Below are positions 27,262 through 34,880 of a stretch of 41,855 nt of DNA, piece by piece. Position 1 is the stretch's first letter. Each line of letters starts with the position of its first letter. A program made the position numbers and the translations under genes. This DNA comes from Bryobacteraceae bacterium CoA2 C42. Lineage in GTDB: Bacteria; Acidobacteriota; Terriglobia; Bryobacterales; Bryobacteraceae. The notes under the pieces are model-generated. The model worked only from the letters and a program-made list of their open reading frames with translations, did no database searches and was not told the DNA's origin. The stretch lies in the NCBI GenBank assembly GCA_019931245.1, contig JAINDL010000051.1:1-41855 (forward strand). Reading direction: 5' to 3'.

Positions 27262-28581
27262 CTACACCGCCGTCAATTCCGGAATCTTCCCCGTGCTATC
27301 GGCAAACCGGTCCAGCCGCACGCCCACCCGGTCCAGCAGCGTCAAATGCAGATTCGCCAGCGGCTCCGGCTTCGTGTACCGCAGGTGCCGCCCCCCGGCC
27401 TTCCGCCCCGCCAACCCGCCCGCCACCAGAATCGGCAGGTTCACATGGTCATGCTTGTCCGCGTTCCCCATCCCGCTGCCGTAAAGATAAATCGAGTGGT
27501 CCAGCAGACTCCCGTCCCCGTCCGGCGTCGCTTGCAGCTTCTCAAGGAAATAAGCAAACAGCGAAACGTGAAACGCGTTGATCTTCGCTACCCGCGCCAG
27601 CTTCTCCGGGTCCCCGCCGTTGTGCGTCAACGGATGGTGCGCGTCCGGCACCCCGATCTCCGGATACGTCCGCGTGCTCGTCTCCCGCGCCAGTTGGAAC
27701 GTCGTCACCCGCGTCACATCCCCCTGCAGCGCCAGCACCTGCAAGTCAAACATCAGCTTGGCGTGCTCGGCGTAGGAGGCCGGCACCCCCACCGGCCGGT
27801 CCAGATCCGGCAGCTTCGACTCCGCCGTGGCCTTCTCCGCCTTCTGAATCCGCCGCTCCACCTCGCGCACCGTATCGAGATACTCGTTCACCTTCGTCCG
27901 GTCGCCCGCCCCCAGCTTCCGCTGCAAACGCGCAATATCGGCGCTCATCCAATCCAGCAGACTCGCATCCTTGCGCAACTCCGCCTGCCGGTCCGCCGCG
28001 CTGCCCCCGTCGCCAAACAGCCGCTCAAACGCAATCCGCGGATGCGCCTCCGCCGGCAGCGGTGTCGTCGGCGACGACCACGACAGGTTGTTCTGATACA
28101 CGCACGCATACCCGTTATCGCACTGCCCCACTGTCGTCAACAGGTCCATCGCCAGCTCGAGCGATGGCAGCCGCGTCCCCTGCCCCATCTGCTGCGCCGC
28201 CACCTGGTCCGCCGTTGTCGCCAACTGGTAATCCGTGCTCTCGGTCCACTTCGCCGTCGCCGCGCTCAAAAACGCCGCGTTCGACGTCGCATGCGTCCCC
28301 GGATAAGCATTCCGCAGCTCCATGTTACTTAGCACCGAGACGTAATCCACCACCGGCGCCAGACTCCGCAGCGTCGGCGACAGCGTCCGCAGGTCCGCCC
28401 CCGGCGGCGTCCACTCCGCAATGTGCGCGCCCATCGGCATGTACACATAACCCAGCCTCCGCACCGGCGCCGCCGCCGCGCTCAACGCCGGCGCCATCGC
28501 ATCGAGCAGCGGCAGCGCTAACGTAGCCCCCATCCCGCGCAGCAGCGCGCGCCGGGGCAGGGCTTTCTTTGTGATGATCAT
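27262..28581 (-). CDS. Tat-exported DUF1552 protein
   Basis: The N-terminus LPRRALLRGMGATLALPLLD is a twin-arginine signal, so the protein is exported folded. The 439-residue product matches DUF1552: 'YVYMPMGAHIAEWTP', 'HATSNAAFLSAA', 'SNMELRNAYPGTHA' and the C-terminal 'IYLYGSGMGNADKHDHVNLP'. DUF1552 genes are typically paired with DUF1592-type cytochromes in Planctomycetota, Verrucomicrobiota and Acidobacteriota, and here its start overlaps the cytochrome gene's stop by ATGA. Family members resemble sulfatase/alkaline phosphatase-fold proteins such as DUF1501, but a catalytic activity has not been established. It very likely acts with the cytochrome in the periplasm. Confidence 0.94.
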   Translation of the reverse strand: MIITKKALPRRALLRGMGATLALPLLDAMAPALSAAAAPVRRLGYVYMPMGAHIAEWTPPGADLRTLSPTLRSLAPVVDYVSVLSNMELRNAYPGTHATSNAAFLSAATAKWTESTDYQLATTADQVAAQQMGQGTRLPSLELAMDLLTTVGQCDNGYACVYQNNLSWSSPTTPLPAEAHPRIAFERLFGDGGSAADRQAELRKDASLLDWMSADIARLQRKLGAGDRTKVNEYLDTVREVERRIQKAEKATAESKLPDLDRPVGVPASYAEHAKLMFDLQVLALQGDVTRVTTFQLARETSTRTYPEIGVPDAHHPLTHNGGDPEKLARVAKINAFHVSLFAYFLEKLQATPDGDGSLLDHSIYLYGSGMGNADKHDHVNLPILVAGGLAGRKAGGRHLRYTKPEPLANLHLTLLDRVGVRLDRFADSTGKIPELTAV

Positions 28582-30839
28582 TGGGCTCTCCTCATCTGAA
28601 ACGACGGGCTGCCGGCAATCCCCTCAAGCAGCGAGGAAAACCGGAAATTGTTGCGTTCGGCCTGCCGGACAATCTGCCGCACCGCCGGGGCGTCCGTAAA
28701 CTCCACCCCGCGGCCCAGCGCGTACGTCAACAGCTTCTCTGTAACGGTTGTAGCAAAAAGCTCGGGCCGCGTCAGCAGCGCCTTCTCAAGGCCCGCCACC
28801 CCGCTAAACTGCGCCCCGTCCGGCAGCCCCCCGCTCACATCCACCGGCACCCCGTCTTCGGCCCGCCGCCAACGCCCCACCGCGTCATAGTTCTCCAGCG
28901 CAAACCCCACCGGGTCCATCAGCTTATGGCAACCCGCGCACGCCGGGTTCCTCCGGTGCTCGGCCAGCCGCTCCCGCACCGTCATTTTCTTCATCGCCGC
29001 CTTGGTCTCCTCAAGCGCCGGCACGTTCGGCGGCGGGGGAGGCGGCGGTACCCCCAGAATATTGTCCAGCACCCACTTGCCCCGAATCACCGGCGAAGTC
29101 CGCGTCGCATACGACGTCACCGTCAAAATGCTCCCCTGCCGCAGCAGCCCGCCCCGCTCCGCCCCCTCGCCAAACGTCACCTTCCGAAACCGGCTCCCGT
29201 ACACCCCCGCCACCCCGTAGTGCTTCGCCAGCCGCTCGTTCAAGAAGCTGTAGTTGGCCCGCAGCAACTCCGTCACGCTCCGGTCCTCCCGCAGCACGCT
29301 CTCTAAAAACAGATGCGTCTCCCGCCGGAACGCCTTCCGCAGATTATCGTCAAAGTCCGGAAACGCCCGCATATCCGGCGTCGCCGCCGCCACATTCCGC
29401 AGTTGCAGCCACTGGTCCGCGAAATTCGTCACCAGCATCCGCGCCCGCTCATCGCCCAGCATCCGCCGCACCTGCCCGCTCAGCACCCCCGGCTTCCGCA
29501 GCTCCCCCCGCTCGGCCAACCCCAGCAGCTCCTCATCCGGAATACTGCTCCACAGAAAAAACGATAGCCGCGACGCCAGCTCCAACTCGCTAATCCGGTA
29601 CGCCGTCCCCGGCTTCACCCCCGCCGGGTCCTGCTCCACCCGGAACAAAAACTCCGGACTCACCAGCACCGCCCGCAGCGCCATCTCAATCCCCGCCTCA
29701 AACCCCTCTTTCCCCTGCGTCTCGCGGAAAAACCGCATCGGCACCGCCAGGTCCGCCGCCCGCACCGGCCGCCGGTAGGCCCGCCGCGCCAGACGGCTCA
29801 CAATCCGGGTCGCGCAAGCCTCGTCCTGCGTCGAGCAAACAAAAATCGCCCGCCGGCTCGGGGTATCGCCCGGCCCCTTGGCGTTGTATGGCCCGTTCAC
29901 CGTCACCGAAAAAACCGCCGGCGTAATCCGCGGATGCCGGTCCATGTTGAAGTGCGCCTGGTAAGGCTGCCGCTCGGTCTCGAGCATCGCCGAAGCCTGC
30001 TTCGGAAACACTGCCGCCACCGTGTGCGGCCCCGCGCTCACCCGCACCCGCACGTTGAACTCCCGGTCCACCCCCGCGTGGTCCTTCCCCGGCGCCGGCG
30101 GCTTGGCCACAAACGCCTGAATGCGCTCGCCGTCCAGCAGCAGCTCCACCGTGTGCTGCCCCCGCAGCCCCTCTACGTGCTCGTTCCGGTCCCGTTGCAG
30201 CCGCACCTGAATCTCGTACTCGGCGTCCAGCGGAAACGTGTACCGCACCGCCGTCCCGCCCCTCGTCCCCAGCGGCAGCCCTTCAAAATGCTCCTCCTGC
30301 GTCAGGTCCGGCGGCAGCAGCACCGTCTCGCCCCCCGCCTGCTTCGGCGCAATGCCAATCGCCAGCCGGCCGATCTTCCGCGCCGCGCCCAGGTAGCGCT
30401 CGAGCAGCGTCGGCGAAAGATTGCCCACCGTCACGTTGTCAAACCCCCGGCTCACATCATCGGCCGGCAGCAGTCCGGTTACGTCCACCTCCACGGCCAG
30501 CAGATCCCGGATCGCGTTCTGGTATTCCGTCCGGTTCAAACGCCGGAACGTATCGGTCCGCCCCGGGTCCATGGGCCGCGCGTCCAGCCGCTTCTCGAGC
30601 CGCGCCACCAGCCCCTCGTACTCCGCCTCTCCCGGCCGCGGCAAACCCGCCGGCGGCATCGTCCGGCCCCGCACCCGCCGCAGCACCTTCTCCCAGCTCG
30701 CCGCATCGTCCGCCTTCACCGTATCGAGCGCCAACCCCGCCACCTTCGTCTGCGCGTTGTGGCAGCCCTTGCAGTAGCGATCAATCACCGGCTCCTGCGC
30801 CAGCAACAAAACAGGAAAAAAGGCCGCCAAGCGGAGCAT
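28578..30839 (-). CDS. Planctomycete-type cytochrome c protein (DUF1587/1592/1588/1585 set)
   Basis: The 753-residue product starts with a signal peptide (MLRLAAFFPVLLLAQ) at 30839; upstream in-frame codons lie inside the neighbour. A haem-binding site CKGCH (Cys 23, Cys 26, His 27) opens a PSCyt1-like domain. Then come DUF1587 ('FRRLNRTEYQNAIRDLLAVE'), DUF1595/DUF1592 around 'EFLFRVEQDP' and 'SRLSFFLWSSIPDEELL', DUF1588 around 'RGGLLRQGSILTVTSYATRT', and DUF1585, before which a second haem site CAGCH lies near residue 632. A Pro-rich linker of seven Pro stands near 615. These proteins are thought to serve periplasmic redox work, often in polysaccharide use; the role is unproven. It follows the anti-sigma gene by 23 bp. 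Confidence 0.94.
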   Translation of the reverse strand: MLRLAAFFPVLLLAQEPVIDRYCKGCHNAQTKVAGLALDTVKADDAASWEKVLRRVRGRTMPPAGLPRPGEAEYEGLVARLEKRLDARPMDPGRTDTFRRLNRTEYQNAIRDLLAVEVDVTGLLPADDVSRGFDNVTVGNLSPTLLERYLGAARKIGRLAIGIAPKQAGGETVLLPPDLTQEEHFEGLPLGTRGGTAVRYTFPLDAEYEIQVRLQRDRNEHVEGLRGQHTVELLLDGERIQAFVAKPPAPGKDHAGVDREFNVRVRVSAGPHTVAAVFPKQASAMLETERQPYQAHFNMDRHPRITPAVFSVTVNGPYNAKGPGDTPSRRAIFVCSTQDEACATRIVSRLARRAYRRPVRAADLAVPMRFFRETQGKEGFEAGIEMALRAVLVSPEFLFRVEQDPAGVKPGTAYRISELELASRLSFFLWSSIPDEELLGLAERGELRKPGVLSGQVRRMLGDERARMLVTNFADQWLQLRNVAAATPDMRAFPDFDDNLRKAFRRETHLFLESVLREDRSVTELLRANYSFLNERLAKHYGVAGVYGSRFRKVTFGEGAERGGLLRQGSILTVTSYATRTSPVIRGKWVLDNILGVPPPPPPPNVPALEETKAAMKKMTVRERLAEHRRNPACAGCHKLMDPVGFALENYDAVGRWRRAEDGVPVDVSGGLPDGAQFSGVAGLEKALLTRPELFATTVTEKLLTYALGRGVEFTDAPAVRQIVRQAERNNFRFSSLLEGIAGSPSFQMRRAQ

Positions 30840-30862
30840 GGCTAAACTATATCGCGCTCCCG

Positions 30863-31534
30863 CTACTCCCAGGGCCGGTCTTTCACAAACCCCGCGTGCT
30901 CCCGCAGCGGCCGGTCCGTCTGAAAATACTTCCGGTAGGCCCCAATCCAATCCGTGGCGATCTCCTCCTGCGCCGTGGCCAGCTCCAGCCGCCCATTGCA
31001 AACCCGCTTGCGCAGATAATCTTCGAGCGCATCCTTCACCCGCGCCGTCCACACACTCCCGCCGTAGGGCTGCGGCCACAGGTTCCGGATCTCCTCGGCC
31101 CCGCCCAGCGCCGGCGAAATCAGATAATCCACCTCGTACGCCCGCGGCGCCGGATTCCGGATCCCGTATCGCGCAAACACCTCCGCCGCCATCTCCCGCG
31201 GCGCCCTTTGCTCGTCATCCTGCGCCGCCGCCACGCAAACCTCCGCCTGTGTCATCGGCCGCGTCGCCCCCGGCGTCAACGCCGCATCCGGCAAATCCGT
31301 CCGTCCCCGCAGCAGCCAAAGCCCCATCCCGCCCACCACCACCAACGCCGCCGCCGCCGCCGCATACCTCCCCCAACCCGCCCCCCACCCGCCCCGGTGC
31401 AGCGCAGTAAACTCCCGCAGCGCCCCCGCCAGCTCCGCCCCCCGCGTCCGGCACTGCGCGCACCCGTCGAAATGGGCGCGCTCCCCCTCCCCGTCCAGAA
31501 TCGCCATCAACTCCGCGTCCGTGCAGTGCCTCAT
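30863..31534 (-). CDS. Membrane anti-sigma factor (ZAS domain) with HNH-like outer domain
   Basis: The 223-residue product has an N-terminal zinc anti-sigma domain with His 21, Cys 25 and Cys 28 spaced HxxxCxxC, one membrane helix (about 58-76), and an outer domain from 96 to 215. That domain contains 'YEVDYLISPALGG' and 'NLWPQPY', resembling HNH-nuclease cores (EVDHxIPLxLGG...NLWP), but the usual His after Asp is Tyr here. Cys 100 and Cys 179 could form a disulfide outside. The ATG at 31534 overlaps the stop of a 57-residue gene that is a decayed copy of its own ZAS part. It most likely holds the ECF sigma factor inactive until the outer domain senses a signal. Confidence 0.88.
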   Translation of the reverse strand: MRHCTDAELMAILDGEGERAHFDGCAQCRTRGAELAGALREFTALHRGGWGAGWGRYAAAAAALVVVGGMGLWLLRGRTDLPDAALTPGATRPMTQAEVCVAAAQDDEQRAPREMAAEVFARYGIRNPAPRAYEVDYLISPALGGAEEIRNLWPQPYGGSVWTARVKDALEDYLRKRVCNGRLELATAQEEIATDWIGAYRKYFQTDRPLREHAGFVKDRPWE

Positions 31535-31719
31535 CGCCCCTCCACCGCCAACCGCCCCCGCCCCTCTTCTCTCCGCCCGTCCCGGCGCATCGCCGCAAAC
31601 TCCTGCACCGTGCGCTTCCACTCCGCGCCCAATGCCGATGCGCCCGGCACCGCACACTCCCCGGCCAACATCGCCGTCAACTCCCCGCTCCTACCGCGCC
31701 TCATCGCCCCTCCACCGCC
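31381..31719. repeat. about 170-bp tandem duplication of the sigma-end/ZAS-start junction
   Basis: A 22-bp block is identical at 31528-31549 and 31698-31719, exactly 170 bp apart, and similarity continues to the left (for example ATCGCC[G/A]TCAACTCC in both). Each unit encodes an end reading LAVEGR or LAAVEGR with stop, then an overlapping MR start and the ZAS N-terminus. The right-hand coding copy has lost the zinc ligands. Confidence 0.8.
31531..31704 (-). CDS. 57-residue decayed ZAS anti-sigma copy between sigma and anti-sigma genes
   Basis: The small gene is joined by ATGA overlaps on both sides: its ATG (31704) to the sigma stop and its stop to the anti-sigma ATG. Its residues 1-43 align with residues 1-49 of the anti-sigma (ELTAMLAGE against ELMAILDGE; VQEFAAMRRDG against LREFTALHRGG), but a gap of about six residues removes the HxxxCxxC zinc site. 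It ends 'GRLAVEGR', echoing the sigma factor's 'GKLAAVEGR'. It therefore arose by tandem duplication of the junction. It may still bind sigma weakly, serve only to couple translation, or be a relic. The open frame and coupling suggest it is translated. Confidence 0.7.
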   Translation of the reverse strand: MRRGRSGELTAMLAGECAVPGASALGAEWKRTVQEFAAMRRDGRREEGRGRLAVEGR

Positions 31720-32213
31720 GCCAGCTTCCCCACCGCCCGCCCCAGCGCCGCCGCCACCGCCCCCAGCGAAATCTCCACCACCTCCGCAATCTCCCGGTGC
31801 CGCAGCCCCTCCGCCCGCAGCAACAAACACCACCGGTCCCTTTCCGGCAGCGCCGCCACCACCGCCTGCAGCCGCTCCCGCCGGCAGCTCAGCAACGCCA
31901 ACTCCTCCGGCCCCGGCGCCGGATCCGCCACCTCCACCTCCTCCACCGTCCGCCCCCTCTGCTCCCGCCGCCGCAGCGCCAGGTTATGCCCCACCCGGAA
32001 CACCCAACCCCGCAAATTCTCCCGGCCCCCCTCCCGCCGCAAATGATGACACAGCGCCAGAAACACCTCCTGCGCCACGTCCTCCGCATCCGCCCCGGGC
32101 AACCCCAGAGCCCCAAGATAACGCAGCAGCGGCCCCCGCCACTGCCCGTACATCTCCGCCACCTCCCTCGCCTGCGGCCAAACCCCGCCCGGCCAAATCG
32201 CTCCATCCGGCAT
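31701..32213 (-). CDS. ECF-type RNA polymerase sigma factor
   Basis: The 170-residue product has only sigma regions 2 and 4. Region 2 includes 'DAEDVAQEVFLALCHHL' and 'RGWVFRVGHNLALRRR'; region 4 includes 'LPERDRWCLLLRAEGLRHR' with the helix-turn-helix 'EIAEVVEISLGAVAAALGRA'. A 20-residue Trp/Pro-containing N-terminus precedes region 2. It is followed by overlapping genes for a decayed and an intact anti-sigma domain, then the cytochrome, DUF1552, ankyrin, patatin and SDR genes, all with gaps of 31 bp or less. It heads the run and is divergent from a TonB receptor 48 bp away, so it probably controls both, including itself. Confidence 0.93.
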   Translation of the reverse strand: MPDGAIWPGGVWPQAREVAEMYGQWRGPLLRYLGALGLPGADAEDVAQEVFLALCHHLRREGGRENLRGWVFRVGHNLALRRREQRGRTVEEVEVADPAPGPEELALLSCRRERLQAVVAALPERDRWCLLLRAEGLRHREIAEVVEISLGAVAAALGRAVGKLAAVEGR

Positions 32214-32261
32214 TCTCTAAAAATACCCTGAACAAACTCCCCCCTGCGCGAATATCCCTCT
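32214..32261. promoter_or_regulatory. 48-bp divergent promoter region between ECF sigma and TonB receptor
   Basis: All promoter signals for the eight-gene minus run and the plus receptor must fit here or inside the genes. TGAAC (32229-32233) followed about 17 bp later by CGAATA is a plausible ECF-type pair toward the receptor; TATTTTT on the minus strand may be a -10 toward the sigma gene. Neither is certain. Confidence 0.35.
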
Positions 32262-34880
32262 GTGAACCTGCTCTTCCTCCTGGCCTCCGTCCTCACCCTC
32301 ACCATCACCGACCCCTCCGGCGCACCCGTCCGCGCCACCGGCCAGCTCGACCACCTCGCCACCGGCGTCTCCACCCGCTTCACCGCCAACCCCCAGGGCC
32401 CAACCACCCTCGATCTCCCCCCCGGCCGCTACCGCCTCTCCCTCTCCCACCCCGGCTTCGTCACCCACTCCGAACTCCTCCCCCTCGACGCTCCCCTCTC
32501 GAAAACCATCGTCCTCGTCGTAGGCGCCCCCGCCTACACCGTCGCCGTCATCGCCACCACCCCCCTTCCCGGCCTGAACCAAACCCCCGACGAAATCCCC
32601 GCCCCCGTCCAGGCCGCCACCGCCGCCGACCTCTCCGCCTCCGGCGCCATCGACCTCGCCGACTTCGCCAACCGCCGCCTCCCCGGCGTCTTCCTCAACG
32701 AAATCCAGGGCAATCCCCTCCAGCCCGATCTCAACTATCGCGGCTACACCGCCTCCCCCCTCCTCGGCACCCCCCAGGGCGTGTCTCTTTATCTGGATGG
32801 CGTCCGCCTCAATCAACCCTTCGGCGACGTCGTCAGTTGGGACCTCATCCCCCGCATGGCCATCGCCGAAATGTTGCTGATCCCCGGCTCGAATCCGCTC
32901 TTCGGCCTCAACACCCTCGGCGGCGCCCTCTCGATGCGGACCAAAGACGGCCGCACCCACCCCGGATCCGCCCTCACCCTCTCCGGCGGCAGCTTCGGCC
33001 GCAAAGTCGCCGAGTTCGAACACGGCGCCAGCCTCTCGAACGGCTTCCACTGGTTCACCGGCGGCAATCTCTTCTTCGAAGACGGCTGGCGCGACTCCTC
33101 TCCCTCCAACGTCCGTCAGCTCTTCACCAAAGTCGGTTACCAACGCGATCGCACCGCCATCGGCCTCACCATGGCCTACGCCAACAACGCCCTGGTCGGC
33201 AACGGCCTGCAGGATATTCGCCTCCTCGAACGGGATTTCCGGAGCATCAACACCAAGCCGGACTTCACCGGCAACCGCTCGCCCTTCCTGAACCTCACGG
33301 TGCAGCGCGCCCTGTCTTCGCGCCTCACCCTCTCCTCAAACGCCTACTTCCGCCATATCCGCACCCGCACTGTCAACGGCGACATCAACGAAGACTCCCT
33401 CGACCAGTCCGTCTACCAGCCCAACGCCGCCGAACGCGCCGCCCTCACCGCCGCCGGCTACACCGGTTTCCCCCTCAGCGGCGAAACGGCCGCCAATACG
33501 CCCTTCCCCAAATGGCGCTGCATCGCCAACGTCCTCCTCCGCGACGAACCCGGCGAAAAATGCAACGGCCTCCTCAATCGCTCCTTGAGCCACCAGCGCA
33601 ACTACGGCCTCTCCGCCCAGCTCACCTTCGCCACCGCCCGCCACCAGTTCACCGCCGGCGCCGCCTACGATGGCAACAGCGTCGGCTTCTCTCAATCCAC
33701 CGAACTCGGCTACCTCAACCCCGACCGCAGCGTCACCCCCCTCGGCGCCTTCGCCGACGGCGTCACCGGCGGCGACGTCGATGGCGAACCCTTCGACACC
33801 CGCGCCAGCCTCCGCGGCCGCATCCACACCGGCAGCCTCTTTCTCACCGATACCTTCCACCTCGGCCGGCTCCACCTCACCGCCTCCGGCCGCTTCAACC
33901 AAACCGTCATCGATAACCTCGACCTCATCCGCCCCACCCCCGGTACCGGCTCCCTCACCGGCCGCCACACCTTCCGCCGCTTCAACCCCGCCGTCGGCCT
34001 CACCTACCGCTGGTTCTACACGAGCTACACCGAAGGCAGCCGCGCCCCCACCTCCATCGAACTCGGCTGCGCCGATCCCGAAGCGCCCTGTCGCCTGCCC
34101 AACGCCATGGCCGGCGATCCACCCCTCAAACAGGTGGTCACCCGCACGGTGGAGGCCGGCCTCCGCGGCGGCGGCGAAAGCAACTTCCGCTGGAACGCCG
34201 GCTGGTTCCGCTCCGACAACCGCGACGACATCCTTTTTGTCGCCTCTGAGCAAACCGGCTACGGCTACTTCCGGAACTTCGGCAAAACCCTCCGCCAGGG
34301 CCTTGAAGCCGGCGCCACCGCCCGCATCCGCCGCGCCACCCTCGGCGCCAGCTACACCCTCCTCGACGCCACCTTCCGCAGCCCCGAAGAGGTCAACGGC
34401 GAAGCCAACAGCACGAACGACGACGAGTTCATCGAGATCCAGCCCGGCAACCGCATCCCGCTCATCCCCCGTCACATGACCAAGCTCTACGCCGACCTCC
34501 AGGTGACCGGCAAGTTCGTCGTCAACCTCGGTGTCGTCGGAACCTCCAGCTCCTTCGCCCGTGGCAACGAAAACAACCAGCACCAGCCCGACGGCCGCCT
34601 CTTTGTCGGTGCGGGCTCCTCCCCCGGCTACGCTGTCGCCAACCTCGGCGCCCGCTACGACGTCCATCCTCGCGTGCAGCTCTTCGGACAGATCAACAAT
34701 CTCTTCGACCAGCGCTACTACACCGGCGGCCAGCTCGGCCCCGCCGGCTTTACGCTCGAAGGAAACTACGTTGCCCGCCCCTTCCCGGCCGTCGACGGCG
34801 AGTTCCCCGTGCGCAACTCAACTTTCTACGCCCCCGGCGCCCCTCGCGGCCTCTGGGGCGGCCTTCGCTTCCGCTTCTAG
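32262..34880 (+). CDS. TonB-dependent outer-membrane receptor
   Basis: The 872-residue product starts at GTG 32262 with a short signal-like helix ([13 protein letters not shown]). Residues 14-90 form a carboxypeptidase-regulatory-like domain; a plug domain follows with '[19 protein letters not shown]', '[19 protein letters not shown]' and '[19 protein letters not shown]'. The barrel ends '[12 protein letters not shown]' with terminal Phe. The plug resembles siderophore or vitamin receptors more than the Oar type at 17328. It contains few cysteines, in extracellular-loop-like regions ([18 protein letters not shown]). Its position divergent from an ECF sigma/anti-sigma pair resembles regulated uptake systems, though no FecR-type protein or TonB box at an N-terminal signalling domain is seen. 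The ligand is unknown. Confidence 0.93.

Follow-up and report, generated by a model that had tools for sequence, protein, structure and literature searches.

What is a 57-codon reading frame doing between an ECF sigma factor gene and the gene of the adjoining anti-sigma factor, overlapping each of them by ATGA, and does it encode a working regulator? We addressed this question for an operon of Bryobacteraceae bacterium CoA2 C42, which lies within an analysed stretch of 41,855 nucleotides (the window). An earlier note on this DNA had proposed that the frame encodes a soluble, metal-independent copy of the class I anti-sigma domain (ZAS) making a two-step or leaky switch, and had left as its last option a relic kept for coupling. 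Our analysis supports that last option, with the coupling itself as its conditional part. With a probability of about 0.62, we read the small frame as a relic that acts as a pass-through relay cistron and would thereby keep the anti-sigma gene coupled to sigma. The coordinates confirm two descriptive claims of the note, a 57-residue gene between sigma and anti-sigma with ATGA at either end and an identical 22-bp block repeated at exactly 170 bp. The features of the locus are as follows.

31701..32213, minus strand: ECF sigma factor gene, 170 aa; Pfam Sigma70_r2 and Sigma70_r4_2 and NCBIfam sigma70-ECF, all above cut-off
31531..31704, minus strand: small open reading frame, 57 codons plus stop; degenerate duplicate of the ZAS start and then of the sigma tail; proposed relay cistron
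30863..31534, minus strand: anti-sigma factor gene (P0002), 223 aa; ZAS ligands, profile matches to ChrR and RsiW; presumably membrane-bound
31394..31534, minus strand: ZAS (class I anti-sigma) part of the anti-sigma factor, residues 1-47
30905..31291, minus strand: outer C-terminal domain of the anti-sigma factor, residues 82-210; HNH-like, both expected His missing; weak fold match only
31698..31719, minus strand: 22-bp junction block, copy 1; sigma 3' end with GGAGG and ATGA
31528..31549, minus strand: 22-bp junction block, copy 2; GGAGG and ATGA for the anti-sigma gene
28578..30839, minus strand: PSCyt/PSD-type gene (DUF1587/1595/1592/1588/1585), downstream
32262..34880, plus strand: TonB-dependent receptor gene, divergent; a possible target, judging from its position

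The ATGA overlaps fall at 31704-31701 (sigma/small frame) and 31534-31531 (small frame/anti-sigma), and a GGAGG Shine-Dalgarno sequence lies upstream of the 4-nt overlap at both junctions. The locus resembles other ECF sigma/membrane anti-sigma operons in the order of sigma before anti-sigma, in a single likely membrane helix, and in the divergent TonB-dependent receptor gene upstream, but differs from them in the extra cistron and in the HNH-like outer domain of the anti-sigma factor. Downstream lie the PSCyt/PSD-type gene, whose 5' part also aligns beside the anti-sigma gene in three relatives (L004, L005, and L006), and a DUF1552 gene; control of these genes or of the TonB-dependent receptor by sigma is possible, given their positions. 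A tandem repeat with a 166-bp unit (1.9 copies, 88%) occupies positions 1525-1833 of the window.

The adjoining anti-sigma factor is a class I protein that retains the zinc ligands His3, His21, Cys25, and Cys28 (HxxxCxxC). No Pfam match was found for P0002, and a profile of its family matched ChrR (E = 6e-4) and RsiW (E = 8e-4) in the PDB. Its structural model places helices at residues 6-13, 19-24, and 26-47 and then at 55-75, the last of which is hydrophobic and presumably spans the membrane. According to PMC7406223, a fourth helix after the linker binds sigma region 2 in class I anti-sigma factors. This segment, between ZAS and the membrane helix, is absent from P0002 and L004-L014 in an alignment read by eye and is carried by the longer homologues L015-L017 and L036 (compared over the region 31372-31534 of the window). 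The description of the membrane anti-sigma factor as intact therefore holds for its four zinc ligands and fails for the helix-4 segment of its longer homologues. The alignment comprises 28 rows, 26 of them ZAS-bearing (fused) and two without ZAS; L020, L022, L023, L037, L040, and L041 were left out as close copies or as cut by a contig end.

The outer domain of this protein looks like a nuclease-like domain turned sensor, perhaps a dead nuclease. Eight of its 23 Foldseek matches name HNH, including ranks 1-5, at a best E of 0.38 and query TM-scores of at most 0.19, and Pfam HNH reached E = 0.1 for two unfused relatives. We chose alignment columns 137, 151, and 165, which we take to be the HNH active-site His-Asn-His. 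The window protein has Tyr-Asn-Arg at these columns, and His-Asn-His occurs in none of the 26 fused rows and in both unfused ones; the latter both come from G025 (L027:1399-1932 and L030:1453-1977), and their products are possibly secreted. Among 247 genomes drawn from the phylum, nine carry the outer domain at E up to 1e-10, and the eight besides the window's own all join it to ZAS and have Tyr or Phe in place of the first His (read by eye). The full His-Asn-His set is found in none of the 34 fused copies counted, and the first His is kept in L019, L021, and L026. A literature search that covered a small part of its results found no anti-sigma factor with an HNH-like outer domain, and the text of PMC7406223, when searched, did not contain "HNH".

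The origin of the small frame can be read from a direct repeat of 78 nt (77% identity, spacing 170), which is the longest of 12 direct-repeat families within 30600-32500, the runner-up measuring 36 nt at 75%. The repeat spans the end of the sigma gene and the start of the anti-sigma gene, and thus the small frame begins as ZAS and ends as sigma tail. Judged from the nucleotide sequence, the frame arose when the 3' end of sigma and the 5' end of the anti-sigma gene were duplicated in tandem. Its protein closes with GRLAVEGR, a copy of GKLAAVEGR at the sigma C-terminus, which makes the frame a chimera; the earlier view of a tandemly duplicated anti-sigma domain was correct as to the duplication, but overlooked the copy of the sigma C-terminus that the frame also carries. 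The 22-bp block is identical in both copies though their aligned codons are 75% identical (chance approximately 0.0015). We set aside a chance frame unrelated to the anti-sigma gene on account of the 78-nt repeat together with the placement of the copy, in trees, with the ZAS of this clade. In L004 and L005, a 9-bp repeat AGCTGGCGG is present at -22 and +156; we do not claim a duplication by way of it, as a further insertion would be needed to match the present spacing.

The small protein aligns with residues 1-46 of the anti-sigma factor, as the note had seen for the ZAS N-terminus (16 of 48 columns identical; BLASTP E = 0.026 in a single comparison), and descends from a class I anti-sigma domain (zf-HC2, PF13490; ChrR, RsiW). 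Unlike such domains, it retains only one of the four zinc ligands, lacking His3, His21, and the second Cys, whereas 26 of 26 ZAS-bearing alignment rows keep all four. The HxxxCxxC motif is indeed missing, as had been observed, yet its first Cys survives (Cys17 against Cys25). On our reading of the alignment, about eight codons including that of His21 have been deleted, and the residues after Cys17 are shifted in register as far as a further insertion that brings them back into line. No zf-HC2 match was found for the small protein at E up to 10, although Pfam misses the real anti-sigma factor as well. Class I anti-sigma domains consist of a three-helix bundle plus a fourth helix; for the small protein, a single-sequence model predicts a helix at residues 6-14 and a long one at 22-55 (mean pLDDT 77.7, pTM 0.43), with 20 of the 57 residues at a pLDDT of at least 90. 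Loss of the ligands does not disprove sigma binding, since PMC7406223 puts the share of class I anti-sigma domains with the zinc motif at about 56% and of those without it at about 44%, and since the deletion falls in helix 2, which is said there not to be critical for sigma contact.

The age and the rate of change of the duplicate bear on whether its protein has been kept. A tree of ZAS sequences unites the small-frame copy with L004, L005, and the real ZAS of the window in one clade (98/97) and gives it a terminal branch of 0.35, as compared to 0.11 for the real ZAS (0.29 and 0.099 in a second tree). The dS is 0.27 between the two window copies and 0.24 between the window and L004 anti-sigma genes, which suggests that the duplication happened at about the time when the nearest relatives split off. 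A tree joining the two window copies is not rejected (p-AU 0.17), and the duplication may thus have come before or after the L004/L005 split. Over 34 alignable codons, the omega of the duplicate is 1.24 against the window ZAS, 1.11 against L004, 0.88 against L005, and 0.89 against L006, as compared to 0.14-0.39 for the whole anti-sigma gene and 0.13-0.23 for sigma among the same four genomes. At least 20 nonsynonymous changes among 26 would be expected with P = 0.55 under an omega of 1, 0.003 under 0.3, and 0.018 under 0.39, and the small protein's sequence therefore appears to be drifting, though the sample is small. These comparisons show a copy that, as far as its codons tell, has decayed as an anti-sigma domain and is under no detectable protein constraint.

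An open frame of 57 codons by itself is no evidence here, such stretches making up 32% of simulated ones and 42% of real minus-strand ones at 28-35 kb. Followed from 31584, the observed phase is alone among the three in terminating at the anti-sigma ATG; another runs to 31217, and the third shares the phase and stop of the anti-sigma gene. In neutral simulations 45-69% of window frames stay free of stops, to be multiplied by approximately 1/3 for the phase. Openness and phase together are thus not improbable under neutrality, and selection for coupling is for this reason only likely. RNA folding at the junctions gave no signal (z of -0.05 to 0.45 in four stretches).

The anti-sigma factor was found in 24 of 61 genomes, including 14 of the 19 of the genus (the window's own genome counted), and the named relatives that share its locus are acidobacterial metagenome assemblies. 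At none of 15 sigma/anti-sigma loci of other genomes (L004-L009, L011-L017, L028, and L036, from 14 genomes, G006 being represented twice) is there room for a 57-codon frame, even in the nearest, whose sigma is 95% identical; close relatives thus lack the small frame, an outcome that the note itself had named as refuting the switch it proposed. The sigma stop directly overlaps the anti-sigma start (ATGA) at the eight nearest loci (L004-L009, L011, and L028, the L011 contig holding only the last 28 sigma residues). Among 14 more distant loci, with starts chosen by eye, 13 have a gap of -4 to +8 nt; in L043 it measures 128 nt, and a run of N lies upstream of it. L010 (G012) was excluded from the junction count as its contig carries no sigma match, L031-L035 were not counted again beside L004-L008, and L057-L064 stand outside the gap counts. 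Alignment of the region with L004-L006 gives a clean insertion between sigma and anti-sigma, and in a search of the genus, the junction DNA matched over its full length only in the window's own genome and in part in 14 of 19. In G006 (L011/L068 and L028/L067), two contig ends carry overlapping, non-identical versions of one sigma/anti-sigma junction, perhaps from two strains or two copies.

We also identified a second case, in G012. There, the contig of the anti-sigma gene (L010) runs out in an array whose 111-bp unit is present in 4.5 copies (88% matching), and the only other occurrence of these units among the 19 genus genomes (E up to 1e-6) is at another G012 contig end (array coordinates L065:2042-2381 and L010:2187-2684). 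On this second contig sigma ends in ATGA, and the frame that follows opens with MKHRDDAELMAVMVGEHLKLGSQWRT, a ZAS start lacking both cysteines, before passing into the same repeats; at its far end the array closes with ...ARSLRKLALVEGR-stop and an ATGA leading into the anti-sigma gene. The order would accordingly be sigma-ATGA-array-ATGA-anti-sigma if, as we infer, the two contig ends join. Eight unit anchors, divided three and five between the contigs, are spaced by 111 bases within each contig and share one phase, which stays open for 113 and 175 codons. In a comparison of six units over 97 bases, pN/pS was 1.68, and a codon-position test on the units found no coding signature (variable columns 7, 9, and 6); the other phases have a pN/pS of 0.64 with 11 stops and of 1.03 with 2 stops. 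Under neutrality, the chance of no stop in eight units is 0.20. The first copy of G012 is placed beside the ZAS of G012 itself (82/75), and a single origin for this array and the window copy was rejected as a joint clade (p-AU 5e-6); the two cases therefore arose separately. Both have open frames and a Shine-Dalgarno sequence with ATGA at their outer junctions, and such a separate origin is found in two of the 12 genus genomes with a sigma match at 1e-40 (19 searched).

We hypothesize that ribosomes finishing sigma would restart on the small frame, and that its translation, ending on the duplicated sigma tail, would be followed by a further restart on the anti-sigma gene, which would thereby stay coupled to sigma across a 170-nt insertion that might otherwise weaken or break the coupling. 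As the duplicate carries the coupling bases with it, a new frame made by a junction duplication of suitable length could hand ribosomes on to the anti-sigma gene. The experiments reported in PMC10666635 on pairs from E. coli and Haloferax speak for this scheme: coupling required a gene distance near zero, and the final 15 nt of the upstream gene were sufficient for it; in E. coli, two pairs lost 80-90% of restart when separated by 38 nt, and a third pair lost all of it. If, however, coupling persists over 150-850 nt, as in other work cited there, the relay would not be needed. In the overlapping pairs reported in PMC6728339, coupling was strict in 13 of 14 tested. The window junctions share with such termination-reinitiation genes the 4-nt overlap and the upstream GGAGG, but differ in that a third, apparently non-functional cistron, ended by a duplicated tail of the upstream gene, would pass the coupling on; a literature search made largely at the level of listings found no counterpart of a duplicated-tail relay cistron. 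The open frame and the retention of Shine-Dalgarno and ATGA at both of its ends favor the relay, whereas conservation of the junctions could also be explained by the C-terminus of sigma and the need of the anti-sigma gene for any ribosome site. The peptide of the small frame is probably without function. As a side effect, the extra restart may lower the anti-sigma:sigma ratio, and, more speculatively, sigma-binding copies might act as constant inhibitors, so that ligand loss may be the price of keeping a duplicate.

Several other explanations could account for the same junction. A plain neutral relic, in which the anti-sigma gene uses a duplicated ribosome site of its own and coupling does not depend on the small frame, is unlikely but deserves to be taken seriously: openness and the right phase are not improbable by chance, the duplicated GGAGG could initiate alone, and among five E. 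coli overlapping pairs described in PMC6728339 one was uncoupled and another only about 60% coupled. Against it stand the two genus duplications, in separate clades, both with open frames and ATGA at their outer ends. We consider it very improbable that the frame encodes a functional soluble, zinc-independent second anti-sigma domain binding sigma beside the membrane-bound one. The homology of the small protein to ZAS residues 1-46, its predicted long helix, and the recurrence in G012 would all suit such a domain, but omega is near 1, the codons around His21 are deleted with the stretch after Cys17 out of register, zf-HC2 is not matched (a point weakened by Pfam's failure on the real anti-sigma factor), and the G012 repeats have a pN/pS above 1. 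We set this explanation aside, and with it the two-step or leaky switch of the note, on the loss of three of four ligands, the undetected protein constraint, and the absence of the frame from all 15 relative loci.

The duplicate could also be a selected dimmer, each extra restart lowering the anti-sigma:sigma ratio and making the switch easier to turn on. The separate origin in two of 12 genomes fits this, as does the account in PMC5207722 of the sigma-B network, in which the relative synthesis of sigma and its partners shapes the output; the junction may, however, simply be prone to duplication, as the 9-bp repeat in L004 and L005 suggests, and selection of this kind has in our judgment only a slim chance of being the cause. 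An assembly artefact scarcely merits consideration: the genome is a 237-contig draft and the G012 array sits at two contig ends, but the window copies differ by approximately 25% with indels, and are therefore not a doubled read set, and the contig continues on both sides. The relay cistron, kept as a relic, remains our preferred reading. A wider proposal built on it is doubtful, namely that junctions in this genus repeatedly grow relay cistrons from their own sequence, the duplicates bringing a coupling element with them in the sigma tail and being kept, or even amplified to an array, to set the ribosome supply of the anti-sigma gene and the threshold of the switch, with sigma binding lost along with the zinc ligands.

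More generally, the locus points to an uncomplicated way for a new small gene to arise within a coupled operon and be tolerated there, whereby the duplicated tail of the upstream gene supplies its own restart site. It also calls for caution, as a short, ATGA-joined, anti-sigma-like frame is not necessarily a working regulator. With two separate cases in the same genus, one can test whether such frames are retained solely for passing ribosomes on.
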